Source of the DNA: Natrinema versiforme
GTDB lineage: Archaea > Halobacteriota > Halobacteria > Halobacteriales > Natrialbaceae
DNA length: 64,000 bases
Reading direction: 5' to 3'
Assembly: GCF_005576615.1 (NCBI RefSeq)
Contig: NZ_CP040330.1
Span: 1,922,001-1,986,000 of the forward strand
In this document: in pieces, positions 23,790 through 43,404 of the stretch
How the letters are laid out: the number at the start of each line of letters is the position of its first letter
Numbering within the stretch: position 1 is the first letter of the stretch
Position numbers and translations under genes: made by a program
Notes under the pieces: model-generated
What the model was told of the DNA's origin: nothing
The model's database searches: none
Seen by the model: the letters and a program-made list of their open reading frames with translations, nothing else

Positions 23790-23822
23790 TCCGCGCGGTT
23801 TATGGAAGTTATAAGGCTAAAA

Positions 23823-23842
23823 CCCCGCCCTTCAGGGCGGGG
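23823..23842 (+). repeat. Left-end hairpin of the IS1341-type element
   Basis: Perfect 8-base stem CCCCGCCC/GGGCGGGG with loop TTCA, near the presumed left end. Hairpins of this kind are the subterminal recognition structures of IS200/IS605 elements. Confidence 0.8.
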
Positions 23843-23913
23843 ATACAGCCGACAAGTCCCTACCAATCCACAGTCGACGGCACGGCGGGATATTCCACGC
23901 CCCGCTCGTTACC

Positions 23914-23930
23914 TTTAATATACTAATTTC
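23914..23930 (+). promoter_or_regulatory. Probable tnpB promoter
   Basis: TTTAATATACTAATTTC is a strongly AT-rich block 26-42 bases before the tnpB ATG at 23956, the best TATA candidate in the element. Confidence 0.45.
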
Positions 23931-23955
23931 CATAAGTACTTATGAACACAGGACG

Positions 23956-25224
23956 ATGCTGGAGACAACTCGCACATATCGGGCAAAAATCGTCAACCAC
24001 CAACAGGTGCGCGGCGACCTCGATGACTGCGGACACTCAGCATCCAAACTGTGGAACGTCGCCCGCTACCACTCCCAACAAGAATGGGACGGAACCGGCG
24101 AGATTCCGTCTGAAGCCGACCTCAAGCGCGAATTAAAAGACCACGAACGCTATAGTGACCTACATTCTCAGTCAAGTCAGCGCGTTCTCGAAGAACTCGC
24201 TGAAGCGTTCAACGGCTGGTTCAAAAAGCGCAAGAACGGCGACACGGACGCGAATCCCCCCGGATACCGGAAGCGAGGCGACAACCACCCACGCTCCACC
24301 GTGACGTGGAAGCAGAACGGCATCAAGCACGATTCCAAGCACAACCAACTCCGTCTGAGCAAAGGCTTCAACCTGAAGAGCCACCGCTCGGACTTCATTC
24401 TCGCAGAGTACGAAACCCGCCCAGATGTGACTGTGGAACACATCCAGCAAGTGCGAGCCGTGTGGAACGGCGACCGCTGGGAACTCCACCTCGTCTGCAA
24501 AGTCGAAATCCCCGTCGAGGACGCACCCGGCGACAACACTGCTGGAATCGACCTCGGCATCAGCAATTACCTCGCCATCGCCTACGATGACGGGGACGCC
24601 GAGTTGTATCCGGGGAACGTGCTGAAGCAGGACAAGCACTACTTCACCCACGACGAGTACGACACCGAGGGTGAGAACGGCCCGTCTCGGCGTGCGCTTC
24701 GTGCCCGTCAGAAACTCTCTCGGCGGAAGGACCACTTCCTGCACGCTCTCTCCAAGCACATCGTTGAGCGGTGTATCGACCATGAGGTCGGTCGCCTCGC
24801 CATCGGTGACTTGAGCAAGATTCGAGAAGACGAGAACGGCGAGTCTCGGAACTGGGGCAAACGCGGGAACAAGAAACTCCACGGATGGGAGTTTGACCGT
24901 TTCACGACGCTCCTGGAATACAAGGCTGAGGAACACGGTATTCTCGTTGACCGGAAGAGCGAGCGGGACACGAGCAAGACGTGTTCGTGTTGTGGGCGGA
25001 AGTGCGATGCGAATCGTGTAGAGCGTGGTTTGTACGTCTGTGAGTCGTGTGGTGCGACGATGAACGCAGACGTGAATGGTGCGGTAAACATTCGCAGAAA
25101 GATAACTCAGAATCCTCCGACTGGGGATATGAGTACCGGTCGTTTGGCACGGCCAGTAGCCTACCTGTTCAATCAAACCTCGGGGCGTTTCGTACCAAGC
25201 GAACAGGTGGGTTGCGAACCGTAA
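23956..25224 (+). CDS. tnpB: TnpB-family RNA-guided endonuclease homologue (OrfB), variant active site
   Basis: 422 residues, of the family ancestral to Cas12. An N-terminal helix-turn-helix/wedge region (1-190) precedes the split RuvC nuclease. RuvC-I has Asp199 in GIDLGISN and RuvC-III has Asp372 in MNADVNGAVNI. The zinc finger is CSCCGRKC (343-350) with CESCG (362-366). At RuvC-II the usual glutamate before Asp-Leu is glycine (LAIGDLSKIRED, Gly284). The segment HGWEFDRFTTLLEYKAEEHGI is typical of haloarchaeal members. The protein would use a guide RNA from the element's right end, which starts one base after the stop. Activity is uncertain because of the Glu-to-Gly change. Confidence 0.92.
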   Translation: MLETTRTYRAKIVNHQQVRGDLDDCGHSASKLWNVARYHSQQEWDGTGEIPSEADLKRELKDHERYSDLHSQSSQRVLEELAEAFNGWFKKRKNGDTDANPPGYRKRGDNHPRSTVTWKQNGIKHDSKHNQLRLSKGFNLKSHRSDFILAEYETRPDVTVEHIQQVRAVWNGDRWELHLVCKVEIPVEDAPGDNTAGIDLGISNYLAIAYDDGDAELYPGNVLKQDKHYFTHDEYDTEGENGPSRRALRARQKLSRRKDHFLHALSKHIVERCIDHEVGRLAIGDLSKIREDENGESRNWGKRGNKKLHGWEFDRFTTLLEYKAEEHGILVDRKSERDTSKTCSCCGRKCDANRVERGLYVCESCGATMNADVNGAVNIRRKITQNPPTGDMSTGRLARPVAYLFNQTSGRFVPSEQVGCEP

Positions 25225-25276
25225 TATCCCAACGCTCGGGAATCCTCGCCCTTCAGGGCGGGGAGGATGTCAATTT
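25225..25276 (+). ncRNA. Right end of the element, likely 3' scaffold of the TnpB guide RNA (omega/reRNA)
   Basis: 52 bases from the tnpB stop to the element boundary, containing the right-end hairpin (25244-25251 pairing with 25256-25263, loop TTCA). In studied TnpB systems the guide RNA covers the end of tnpB and the right end, and the guide is whatever host DNA follows. By that rule the guide here would begin at 25277. Transcription is inferred, not shown. Confidence 0.6.
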
Positions 25277-41013: not shown

Positions 41014-41126
41014 TCGAGGTCCACCACATTTGATCCGGGAGCGCTGGGCCGACGGCTGTAGTAGTTGCAACAAGTATCGACACTATCGGACGCAGTCTGT
41101 GGTGTCCCTACAGGGGCGGGGAAATT

Positions 41127-41153
41127 GCGCGGTGCGTACTCTGCGTACCGCGC
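41127..41153 (+). terminator. Imperfect palindrome after fibrillarin
   Basis: GCGCGGTGCGTA and TGCGTACCGCGC form a near-perfect inverted repeat around CTC, 114 bases past the fibrillarin stop. It could be a terminator, a regulator site for the downstream dehydrogenase, or a remnant. Confidence 0.4.
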
Positions 41154-41267
41154 TAGTAGAAAGAGGAGCTGGCCGATATGAGACGCTTGCACCGTCGAGT
41201 GTTCGCGAATCCGGCAAAACGCTCACCGGACCGAAGAGTCAACCCCTTCACGTTCTTTCGGTTCGTT

Positions 41268-42290
41268 GTGAAAGCCTACGAAGTTCAGGAGTCCTCGAGT
41301 GACTACTCAGGAATCGTCGAAGTCGAACGCGACCGTCCCGAACCGGCGGCTGACGAAGCGCTCGTCGAGATTCGAGCGGCCTCTCTTAACTACCGGGACC
41401 TATCGATTGCTAATTCGGACCTCACGTACCCCGGTGCCGAACTGCCGGTCATCCCACTTTCTGACGGGGCCGGCGAGGTTACTGCAGTCGGCGAGGACGT
41501 ACAGCGCCTCTCGGAGGGCGACCGCGTTGCAACGCCCTTTGCGCCCGACTGGGTTGACGGCCCGGTCGCACCTGAGAAGATCGGACGGACGACCGGCGGC
41601 AACAGTGATGGAGCCTTAGCGGAGTACGTGACGTTCCCGGCCGACAGTCTCGCAGTCCTTCCTGACACCCTCTCGTACGAACAGGGAGCAACGCTGTCCT
41701 GCGCTGGATTGACTGCGTGGCGTGAACTCCATGAAGAGGTCGACCTCACTGCCGATGACACAGTCTTAGTGCTGGGTACCGGCGGCGTCTCCATGTTCGC
41801 GCTGCAGTTCGCGACGATGCGAGGCGCCGACGTTTTTGTCACCTCCTCGAGCGACGAGAAATTAGAACGCGCCCGCGAGCTTGGCGCGACGTGGACACTC
41901 AATTACGAGGAGACACCCGAGTGGGGCGAGGCCGTTCGAGAAGAGACCGGCGGCGTCGACCACGTCATTGAGGTCGGTGGCCCCGGAACCCTCGAGAGGT
42001 CGGTGGAAGCCGCCGATTTCGACGGCCACGTCCACCTGATTGGCGTCCTCTCTGGCCAAGACGGGCAGGTCCATCCCGGCCCGATTCTGGTGAAAGGGCT
42101 CACCGTCAAGGGCTCGATGGGCGTTGGTAGTCGCGCAATGTTCGACCGGATGAACAGCGCGATTGAAGCCGCGGCTATCGAGCCGGTTATCGACCGTACG
42201 TTCGGCTTCGAGCCAGAAGACATCCGCGAGGCCTATCGCTACGTTGAAGACGGGAGCCACCAGGGCAAGGTCGTCATTTCGCTCGAGTGA
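41268..42290 (+). CDS. Zinc-independent medium-chain dehydrogenase/reductase (quinone oxidoreductase-like)
   Basis: 340 residues, MDR superfamily. The N-terminal GroES-like half has ASLNYRDLSIANSDLTYPGA, with Asn-Tyr-Arg-Asp instead of the catalytic zinc cysteine; the structural zinc cysteines are also missing. The nucleotide-binding motif LVLGTGGVSMFALQFA is followed by VIEVGGPGTLERSV. It probably uses NADPH to reduce a quinone, enoyl or aldehyde substrate. Third-position GC and overall GC are lower than in neighbours, and the gene is bounded by a palindrome upstream and an insertion-sequence end 3 bases after its stop, so it may have been acquired. GTG 41268 is the likely start. Confidence 0.85.
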   Translation: MKAYEVQESSSDYSGIVEVERDRPEPAADEALVEIRAASLNYRDLSIANSDLTYPGAELPVIPLSDGAGEVTAVGEDVQRLSEGDRVATPFAPDWVDGPVAPEKIGRTTGGNSDGALAEYVTFPADSLAVLPDTLSYEQGATLSCAGLTAWRELHEEVDLTADDTVLVLGTGGVSMFALQFATMRGADVFVTSSSDEKLERARELGATWTLNYEETPEWGEAVREETGGVDHVIEVGGPGTLERSVEAADFDGHVHLIGVLSGQDGQVHPGPILVKGLTVKGSMGVGSRAMFDRMNSAIEAAAIEPVIDRTFGFEPEDIREAYRYVEDGSHQGKVVISLE

Positions 42291-42293
42291 GCT

Positions 42294-42345
42294 AAATTGA
42301 CATCCTCCCCGCCCTGAAGGGCGAGGATTCCCGAGCGTTGGGATA
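42294..42345 (-). mobile_element. Solitary right end of the IS1341-type element
   Basis: The reverse complement of these 52 bases is identical to 25225-25276, the right end of the complete element, including its hairpin. Identity stops at both sides, and no tnpB or left end adjoins it. It sits between the stop codons of two converging genes. It is either a deletion remnant or a very short derivative. Confidence 0.85.
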
Positions 42346-42365
42346 AAGAGCGTGCCGACACTCGG

Positions 42366-42995
42366 TCACTCGGCCGTCTCGTTCTGGTCCTCCTCGAGCG
42401 TGATCATCGCGTCGTCGGTGACCGGTTCCTCGTCAGTGACGTAGGGATCGTCGGCCTCGGGGAAGTCATAGGTCTGATTGTCGTTGGTGTCCTGATGGGC
42501 CATCGCGATCAGGACTTGGCTCTCCTCGAGGGATTCGTTGAGTTCGATGGTCACGTTTTCGTGATCGCCGGACTCCAAGTGAGTGGAGTTACCCAGGACG
42601 TCTCCGGGCTCGTACTCCTCGGACAGGTTCGTGACCGTCTCGTTCTCGTCCGCCGTCGCGTTGTCGCCGTTCTCGTCGTCGGTGGCGTTGTCGCCGTTCT
42701 CGTCGTCGGTGGCGTTGTCGCCGTTCTCGTCGTCGGTGGCGTTGTCCCCGTCGACGGGCGCGGCCGCGTGGATGACGGCGAAGCCGCCCTCGGGTAGCGT
42801 CGTGTTATTGACCGCGACTGCCGTCCCGTTCGACGTCTGGTTCTCGAAGGTCACCGTCGCCGTTTCGTTCTCCGTCTCGTTGTCTTGGACCGTGCCGGCG
42901 TCGGTCGCGGCCAACGCGATGCTCGCCCCCGAGAGGAGGACGAGCGCCGCGATCACTGCGATACCGACGGTTCTTGTACGTGGCATCATATCCAT
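42366..42995 (-). CDS. Exported DUF7282-like surface protein with 9-residue repeats
   Basis: About 209 residues. A signal peptide or anchor (TVGIAVIAALVLLSGASIAL) precedes a domain with VTFENQTSNGTAVAVNNTTL and PEGGFAVIHAAAPVDG. Three and a half tandem GDNATDDEN repeats follow, then EPGDVLGNSTHLESGDHENVTIELNE and AMAHQDTNDNQTYDF, the sequence style of haloarchaeal DUF7282 proteins. It has many Asn-x-Thr/Ser sites that could be N-glycosylated on the cell surface. Function unknown. Several in-frame start codons (42986-42995) make the first residue uncertain. Confidence 0.75.
   Translation of the reverse strand: MDMMPRTRTVGIAVIAALVLLSGASIALAATDAGTVQDNETENETATVTFENQTSNGTAVAVNNTTLPEGGFAVIHAAAPVDGDNATDDENGDNATDDENGDNATDDENGDNATADENETVTNLSEEYEPGDVLGNSTHLESGDHENVTIELNESLEESQVLIAMAHQDTNDNQTYDFPEADDPYVTDEEPVTDDAMITLEEDQNETAE
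42660..42743 (-). repeat. 27-base tandem repeats encoding GDNATDDEN
   Basis: Three nearly identical 27-base units plus partial flanking units inside the surface-protein gene. Each unit adds one Asn-Ala-Thr glycosylation sequon and four acidic residues. The third base is conserved as well as the first two, so copy number may vary by slippage. Confidence 0.85.
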
Positions 42996-43404
42996 CGACG
43001 GTACCGTCACAGGTCGACAAAAACCGGCGGTTTCGTTCGAGCGTTCCAGGAGTAGAAATATCCGAATTCGCCGGAACGAGGGCTCAGGGTAAGAGACCTA
43101 TTCCGACCCCGCTCAGTGGTGTAATGTCGTTGTTCTGAGGAGATATCTCGAGGGAGCACCGAACCCACAGTAGCGTTCGAGATGGTATCGGAGTGCGAGG
43201 TATCCGTCAGTGGAACGCTCGAGAGCGTCGATCGGCCCCGTGAGGGCTGAGAGACCGCGGTGTCAGGACCCCGGGCCGGGGACTCGTACAACGGGGGTCG
43301 AGCAGACTGTCCCGTCCGGGAACGAGGAATCGCGGCGACGTAGCTCAAGTGCGTCTTTCACCTACTGGAAGAACTTTACAAAATCCCACCGTAGGGAGGA
43401 ACAG
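42996..43404. other. Divergent intergenic region, no gene supported
   Basis: About 400 bases between the surface-protein gene (leftward) and the lipoprotein pair (rightward). No protein-like frame stands out. It ends with GGGAGGAACAG just before ATG 43405, a good ribosome binding site, unusual in a window where most genes look leaderless. Confidence 0.5.
43394..43399 (+). promoter_or_regulatory. Strong ribosome binding site
   Basis: GGGAGG six bases before the ATG at 43405 matches the 3' end of 16S rRNA. It fixes the start of the first lipoprotein gene. Confidence 0.6.

Follow-up and report, generated by a model that had tools for sequence, protein, structure and literature searches.

The locus considered here poses a simple question: what are the 52 nucleotides that lie between two converging genes of Natrinema versiforme and repeat, in reverse complement, the right end (RE) of a TnpB element 17 kb away? 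The original prediction left the choice among a guide-RNA gene acting in trans, a small derivative element, and a shared terminator hairpin. The window that we analyzed is a stretch of 64,000 nucleotides (contig NZ_CP040330.1, positions 1,922,001 to 1,986,000), and all coordinates are positions in this window.

Extent and setting of the solitary right end

Comparison of sequences in the window confirmed that the minus strand of 42294 to 42345 is identical to 25225 to 25276 over 52 nt, as had been claimed, and the core 30-mer has two matches in the window versus none in 100 shuffles. It had also been claimed that the match stops at both limits of these 52 bases. The copy is indeed solitary, but its outer limit lies 3 nt too far out. 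The alignment of the two closest full copies runs from the left-end (LE) hairpin to GTCAA at 25273, other full elements cease to match at the same position, and most related right ends likewise end at GTCAA in an alignment of relatives, which places the true tip of the solitary copy at GTCAA, at 42297. By these alignments, the TTT/AAA at 25274 to 25276 and 42294 to 42296 is a chance match beyond the tip. On the inner side, the solitary copy reads TTTAT/CCCAACG (slashes mark junctions), and the complete element of the window reads GTAATAT/CCCAACG, with TAATAT being general in full elements. Because target and element both have TAT, only 46 nt (42297 to 42342) certainly derive from the element, and the exact cut is not placeable within three bases. 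On its own strand, the locus reads ...CGGCACGCTCTTTAT/CCCAACGCTCGGGAATCCTCGCCCTTCAGGGCGGGGAGGATGTCAA/TTTAGCTCACTCG....

The RE hairpin of this 46-nt stretch folds as single-stranded DNA with -10.7 kcal/mol (z of -2.6). No LE motif was found in its flank, and a profile search of 1.6 kb to each side, on both strands, returned no TnpB match. The locus thus has neither the LE hairpin nor the tnpA or tnpB between two ends that make up a complete IS605/IS1341 element. The features are collected in Table 1.

Table 1. Features of the solitary right end, its neighbors, and the complete element in the window
Feature	Position	Strand	Basis
TTTAT target/TAM of the complete element	23799..23803	+	TTAT spacing before LE hairpin in full elements
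Complete tnpB-only IS605/IS1341-type element	23804..25273	+	Alignment to second full copy in genome; LE/RE layout
LE hairpin of the complete element	23823-23842	+	LE/RE layout
tnpB, 422 aa, OrfB_IS605 and Cas12f1-like_TNB domains	23956..25224	+	Pfam PF01385, PF07282
Predicted omega-RNA helices H1 to H4, within the tnpB ORF; not retained in the solitary copy	25106..25214	+	Consensus fold of 64 full elements, compensatory changes
Predicted omega-RNA helices H5 and H6, after the stop codon; sole helices in the solitary copy	25227..25264	+	Same consensus fold
RE hairpin of the complete element	25244-25263	+	LE/RE layout
TCAA tip of the complete element	25270-25273	+	LE/RE layout
Zinc-type alcohol dehydrogenase gene, ending 6 nt from the remnant tip	41178..42290	+	Pfam PF08240, PF00107
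Guide-position sequence TTTAGCTCACTCGAGCGAAATGAC, antisense to the 3' end of the dehydrogenase gene	42273..42296	-	Position only
Solitary RE remnant, 46 nt, CCCAACGCTCGGGAATCCTCGCCCTTCAGGGCGGGGAGGATGTCAA	42297..42342	-	Identical to 25228-25273; tip from other full elements ending GTCAA
TCAA tip of the remnant	42297-42300	-	IS608-like layout
RE subterminal hairpin region CCTCGCCC-TTCA-GGGCGGGG	42304..42323	-	DNA fold; layout as IS608 GR/CR
GAAT foot, immediately 5' of the RE hairpin	42324-42327	-	IS608-like layout
TTTAT, presumably the target/TAM at which the lost element had inserted, joined directly to CCCAACG	42343..42347	-	Same pentamer at 23799-23803; TTAT before CCCAACG at 6/6 exact-junction solitary loci
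Converging gene, DUF7282 protein	42366..43010	-	Pfam PF23951

Other genomes of the genus lack the dehydrogenase gene at this position, relatives keeping the fibrillarin and DUF7282 genes without it, and none of the strains or relatives available shows a filled or empty version of the site at 42297. The gene forms part of an extra block between fibrillarin and DUF7282 (window positions 41014 to 42360). Other genomes hold other DNA in the same gap: a small zinc-ribbon-like ORF fills it in G027, and in G014 the fibrillarin gene is followed by an unrelated IS605-like non-coding element of about 530 bp with LE- and RE-like hairpins (L032, about 725 to 1270).

The complete element and its relatives

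The genome of N. versiforme (4.67 Mb, five contigs) contains four tnpB genes of the element's family (L010 to L013), and beyond the right ends of these it carries several shorter or degraded right ends. The exact 46-mer was found in 14 records, from ten other named haloarchaeal genera and a MAG, with tnpB just upstream in every case. Direct descent of the solitary copy from the element 17 kb away is unsupported, the exact 46-mer being common elsewhere.

A hairpin search yielded 16 full elements with a readable LE. Ten of these have TTAT 19 nt before the LE hairpin and an LE foot that is AAAA or close to it; in the other six, TTAC precedes the hairpin by 17 to 18 nt and the foot is AAAG. This covariation of target and foot follows the guide/cleavage pairing rule of IS608. 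At the RE, full elements have the foot GAAT and the tip TCAA.

The position of the canonical RuvC-II catalytic Glu is occupied by Gly (AIGDL) in all 48 TnpBs compared (the window copy and 47 related full-length proteins); the canonical motif in Cas12f/TnpB structures is MEDL. Asp199 of RuvC-I and Asp372 of RuvC-III are invariant in the same family, as is Glu336 (SERDTSKTC). TnpBs with rearranged catalytic sites are on record; in this family, the Glu would have moved to another position of a working active site, or else the nuclease would be inactive.

Recurrence of the junction in other haloarchaea

The junction TTAT/CCCAACG without tnpB on either side was found at six unrelated loci (the solitary copy here, L162, L163, L301, L302, and L303), which span four families of one order. 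The LE spacer is kept in none of the six flanks. A seventh solitary case, shared by L182 and L184, has two extra bases (TTTAT/AT/CCC).

In 125 genomes of the family, TTATCCCAACG...GGGAATCC occurs at three places, all without tnpB, and CCCAACG...GGGAATCC with no condition on the preceding bases occurs at 112, in 91 of which AATAT stands in front; the search pattern requires CCCAACG...GGGAATCC, and the counts cover only products with that right end-point. We inspected 88 distinct copies, including loci fetched from outside the 125 genomes. Those that are intact and without tnpB are the solitary copy here, L162, L163, and the L182/L184 pair; the remainder are made up of elements (some of them degraded), copies truncated by a contig end, and chance matches in coding sequence. 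Wherever AATAT precedes CCC, the copy belongs to a tnpB element, intact or degraded, or is truncated by a contig end. The pattern BTATCCCAACGNNNGGGAATCC has six matches in 392 genomes of the order. Five are tnpB-free (the copy here, L163, L301, L302, and L303), and in all five the non-A base before TATCCCAACG is T, for which the chance is about 5 in 10,000 at an estimated base composition of about 18% T and 32% each of G and C; the sixth, with C at this position, is a degraded tnpB element. A search of the 392 genomes with VCCCAACGNNNGGGAATCCTC gave no matches, and thus no copy with a non-T base before CCCAACG.

The flanks of several of these loci are informative. In L163 (G069), the remnant lies between two genes that are adjacent to each other across the family, with 99 nt between the alignable parts versus 52 nt in the closest relative, G066, where the intergenic sequence has diverged. 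This amounts to an addition of about the remnant's length with no flank lost. Comparison of L162 with relatives showed conservation in the right flank only. L182 and L184 come from two species with different flanks around a shared block of about 0.8 kb, near the border of which the solitary right end hitchhikes. Vertical conservation of this pair was ruled out, as the shared sequence breaks off about 30 bp beyond the right side of the remnant, so that the remnant travelled inside a larger unit. In L301 (about 1445 to 1504), the solitary right end apparently lies shortly downstream of a tRNA-like 3' end (GGTTCAAATCC...GCA). Three matches on viral contigs were discarded as chance; they represent one phage coding stretch without the hairpin.

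The sharing of one fixed junction by six unrelated loci of the order speaks for a specific step and not for random decay. From a literature search that covered few subscription papers, we know of no description of a remnant in which the TAM is joined to the inner edge of the RE.

Origin of the solitary right end

On balance, we think it probable that the solitary copy is a terminal-only remnant, or scar, of an IS200/IS605 element of the IS1341 type carrying tnpB, whose core was lost after insertion by a join of the TAM to the RE. The prediction of a small derivative element is upheld in spirit, the derivative being a truncated TnpB element with the target TTTAT at its inner edge. The sequences themselves show the end-points, a junction that recurs exactly at independent loci, and flanks devoid of LE and tnpB. 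For the sequence of events and the cause of the join, we infer the following. A complete element would have entered the interval between the dehydrogenase and DUF7282 genes on the 3' side of TTTAT, at a site that would have read ...GGCACGCTCTTTAT/TTTAGCTCACTCGAG... beforehand. Some 1.42 kb, from the left end through tnpB and its stop codon, would then have been lost through the joining of the target TTAT to the ATAT on the right end's inner margin (AATAT/CCCAACG), leaving TTTAT, the 46-nt right end, and an undisturbed right flank. Three agents may be envisaged. TnpA might have excised the element incorrectly, the LE guide AAAA accepting ATAT, which differs from TTAT by one base and could thus be taken as a near-cognate left cleavage site. 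The deletion might instead have run through the 3-bp TAT microhomology, a route open to any repair pathway, or it might reflect the repair of a TnpB cut. Mis-excision and microhomology deletion would both yield the same product, and sequence alone cannot separate them; TTAT/CCCAACG offers a simple junction with which to assay aberrant TnpA excision or TnpB-driven repair. The remnant is probably without function, and it may keep the site insensitive to the element's own TnpB because the TAM and the guide-matching DNA are now separated.

A less likely explanation is that the 46 nt form a miniature mobile element in their own right, an RE-only PATE moved in trans by TnpA into TTAT targets. Every copy does lie 3' of TTAT, the normal target, intact Y1 transposase genes are present in the same genome, and the authors who described a 52-bp terminal-only version of ISHwa23 in Haloquadratum suggested that it is possibly mobile (PMC3119063). 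Such an element would, however, have neither an LE nor the AAAA foot, which is the target selector in IS608 and belongs to the LE; the remnant's own foot, GAAT, pairs with TCAA and would select that sequence, so that TTAT most simply dates from the insertion of a full element. Moreover, there is one remnant per genome and no amplified set of near-identical copies in the 392 genomes, and each remnant matches a different RE variant, which fits independent losses.

Somewhat further down in probability, we place a scar of unfinished TnpB homing, in which an empty site is cut by TnpB, the right end is copied from a filled copy, and the copying switches template from ATAT to the TTAT of the TAM. Such an event would be expected to leave the junction observed, to spare the guide flank, and to make the site resistant to further cutting, and the cutting of vacated donor sites is a proposed role of TnpB (PMC8612924). 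Against it, all of its steps are hypothetical, the TAM-side end would have to shed protruding guide bases, and the cutting activity of this family is putative given the Gly at RuvC-II. If homing that stopped early were the true source, these small immune scars, in which the TAM is separated from its target, would form a countable fossil record of natural TnpB activity.

We regard it as very unlikely that the locus is an orphan guide-RNA gene, whose minus-strand transcript would serve as an omega RNA guiding a resident TnpB in trans with a guide ending in TTTAGCTCACTCGAGC. The RE hairpin and tip are intact, a guide-position sequence follows, and read-through of the DUF7282 mRNA could supply the RNA. 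The scaffold argues otherwise. An alignment of 64 full elements over their last ~210 nt gave a consensus fold with six helices, H1 to H6. The pairing of H1, H2, H4, and H6 beats all 500 shuffles and that of H3 beats 494, and H5 is invariant and uninformative for this comparison; these values lend support rather than proof, since the ORF also encodes protein and the sequences are related. A fold with helices inside the ORF agrees with the TnpB-bound RNA of ISDra2, which is about 150 nt long and extends into the 3' end of tnpB (PMC8612924), and with the omega RNAs of Halobacterium, which have a pseudoknot and a right-end hairpin (PMC12558985). The view that the right end carries the guide-RNA scaffold therefore stands for H5 and H6 and fails for H1 to H4, which lie in the tnpB ORF; with these four of the six conserved helices missing and the two 3'-most left, an orphan guide working in trans finds no support. 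No promoter-like match to the bacterial consensus, which does not cover archaeal promoters, was found near the solitary copy, and Rfam gave no omega-RNA match in the window. The case cautions annotators against taking a solitary right end, on its own, for an orphan guide-RNA gene.

That the hairpin is maintained as a bidirectional terminator for the two converging genes is hardly credible: the position is suitable and the sequence folds as DNA, but a scan found no T-run after the hairpin on either strand, the other solitary copies have different neighbors that are not always convergent, and the sequence is absent at the corresponding site in relatives, which leaves the shared terminator of the original prediction unsupported.

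Comparison with known systems

The right-end hairpin of the remnant corresponds to the 3' part of archaeal omega RNAs or sotRNAs as described from Halobacterium (PMC12558985). Unlike those RNAs, it is missing the ORF-encoded part of the scaffold, and it is known here as a DNA sequence.

The guide and cleavage sequences of IS608 are GL AAAG with CL TTAC and GR GAAT with CR TCAA (PMC5934647), and the feet, targets, and tips of the full elements here either equal these or covary with them as expected. The remnant has the right end of such IS200/IS605 elements, with hairpin, GAAT foot, and TCAA tip at 42297 to 42327 on the minus strand, and, as in IS608 and ISDra2, the target is TTAT or TTAC and is paired by an LE foot of AAAA or AAAG; the feet are those of the full elements, and the remnant contributes TTTAT at its inner edge. 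Unlike IS608 and ISDra2, the remnant consists of an RE without any gene, and the complete elements here carry tnpB only.

In the same literature search, the nearest precedent for a solitary right end, or for an orphan omega RNA acting in trans, is the set of terminal-only PATEs of Haloquadratum walsbyi, whose 52-bp IS605-type versions arose by deletion from palindrome to palindrome (Dyall-Smith et al. 2011, PMC3119063). Remnants of this palindrome-fusion kind are fairly common in the genus (L127, L133, L151, L159, L161, and L061 [140]); they measure about 50 bp, consist of an LE spacer, a single hairpin, and an RE tip preceded by TTAC or TTAT, and resemble the Haloquadratum PATEs. Like the terminal-only PATEs, the solitary copy is a very short non-coding IS1341/IS605-type remnant (46 nt) that has lost the core, retains a palindrome near its tip (the RE hairpin), and shows no target duplication. 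The PATEs, however, keep the LE spacer and LE foot beside a single palindrome and the RE tip, whereas the remnant here is without any LE base, its inner side being the RE-internal CCCAACGCTCGGGAAT joined to TTTAT. The solitary copy is thus a sibling product of the terminal-only PATEs with a different junction.
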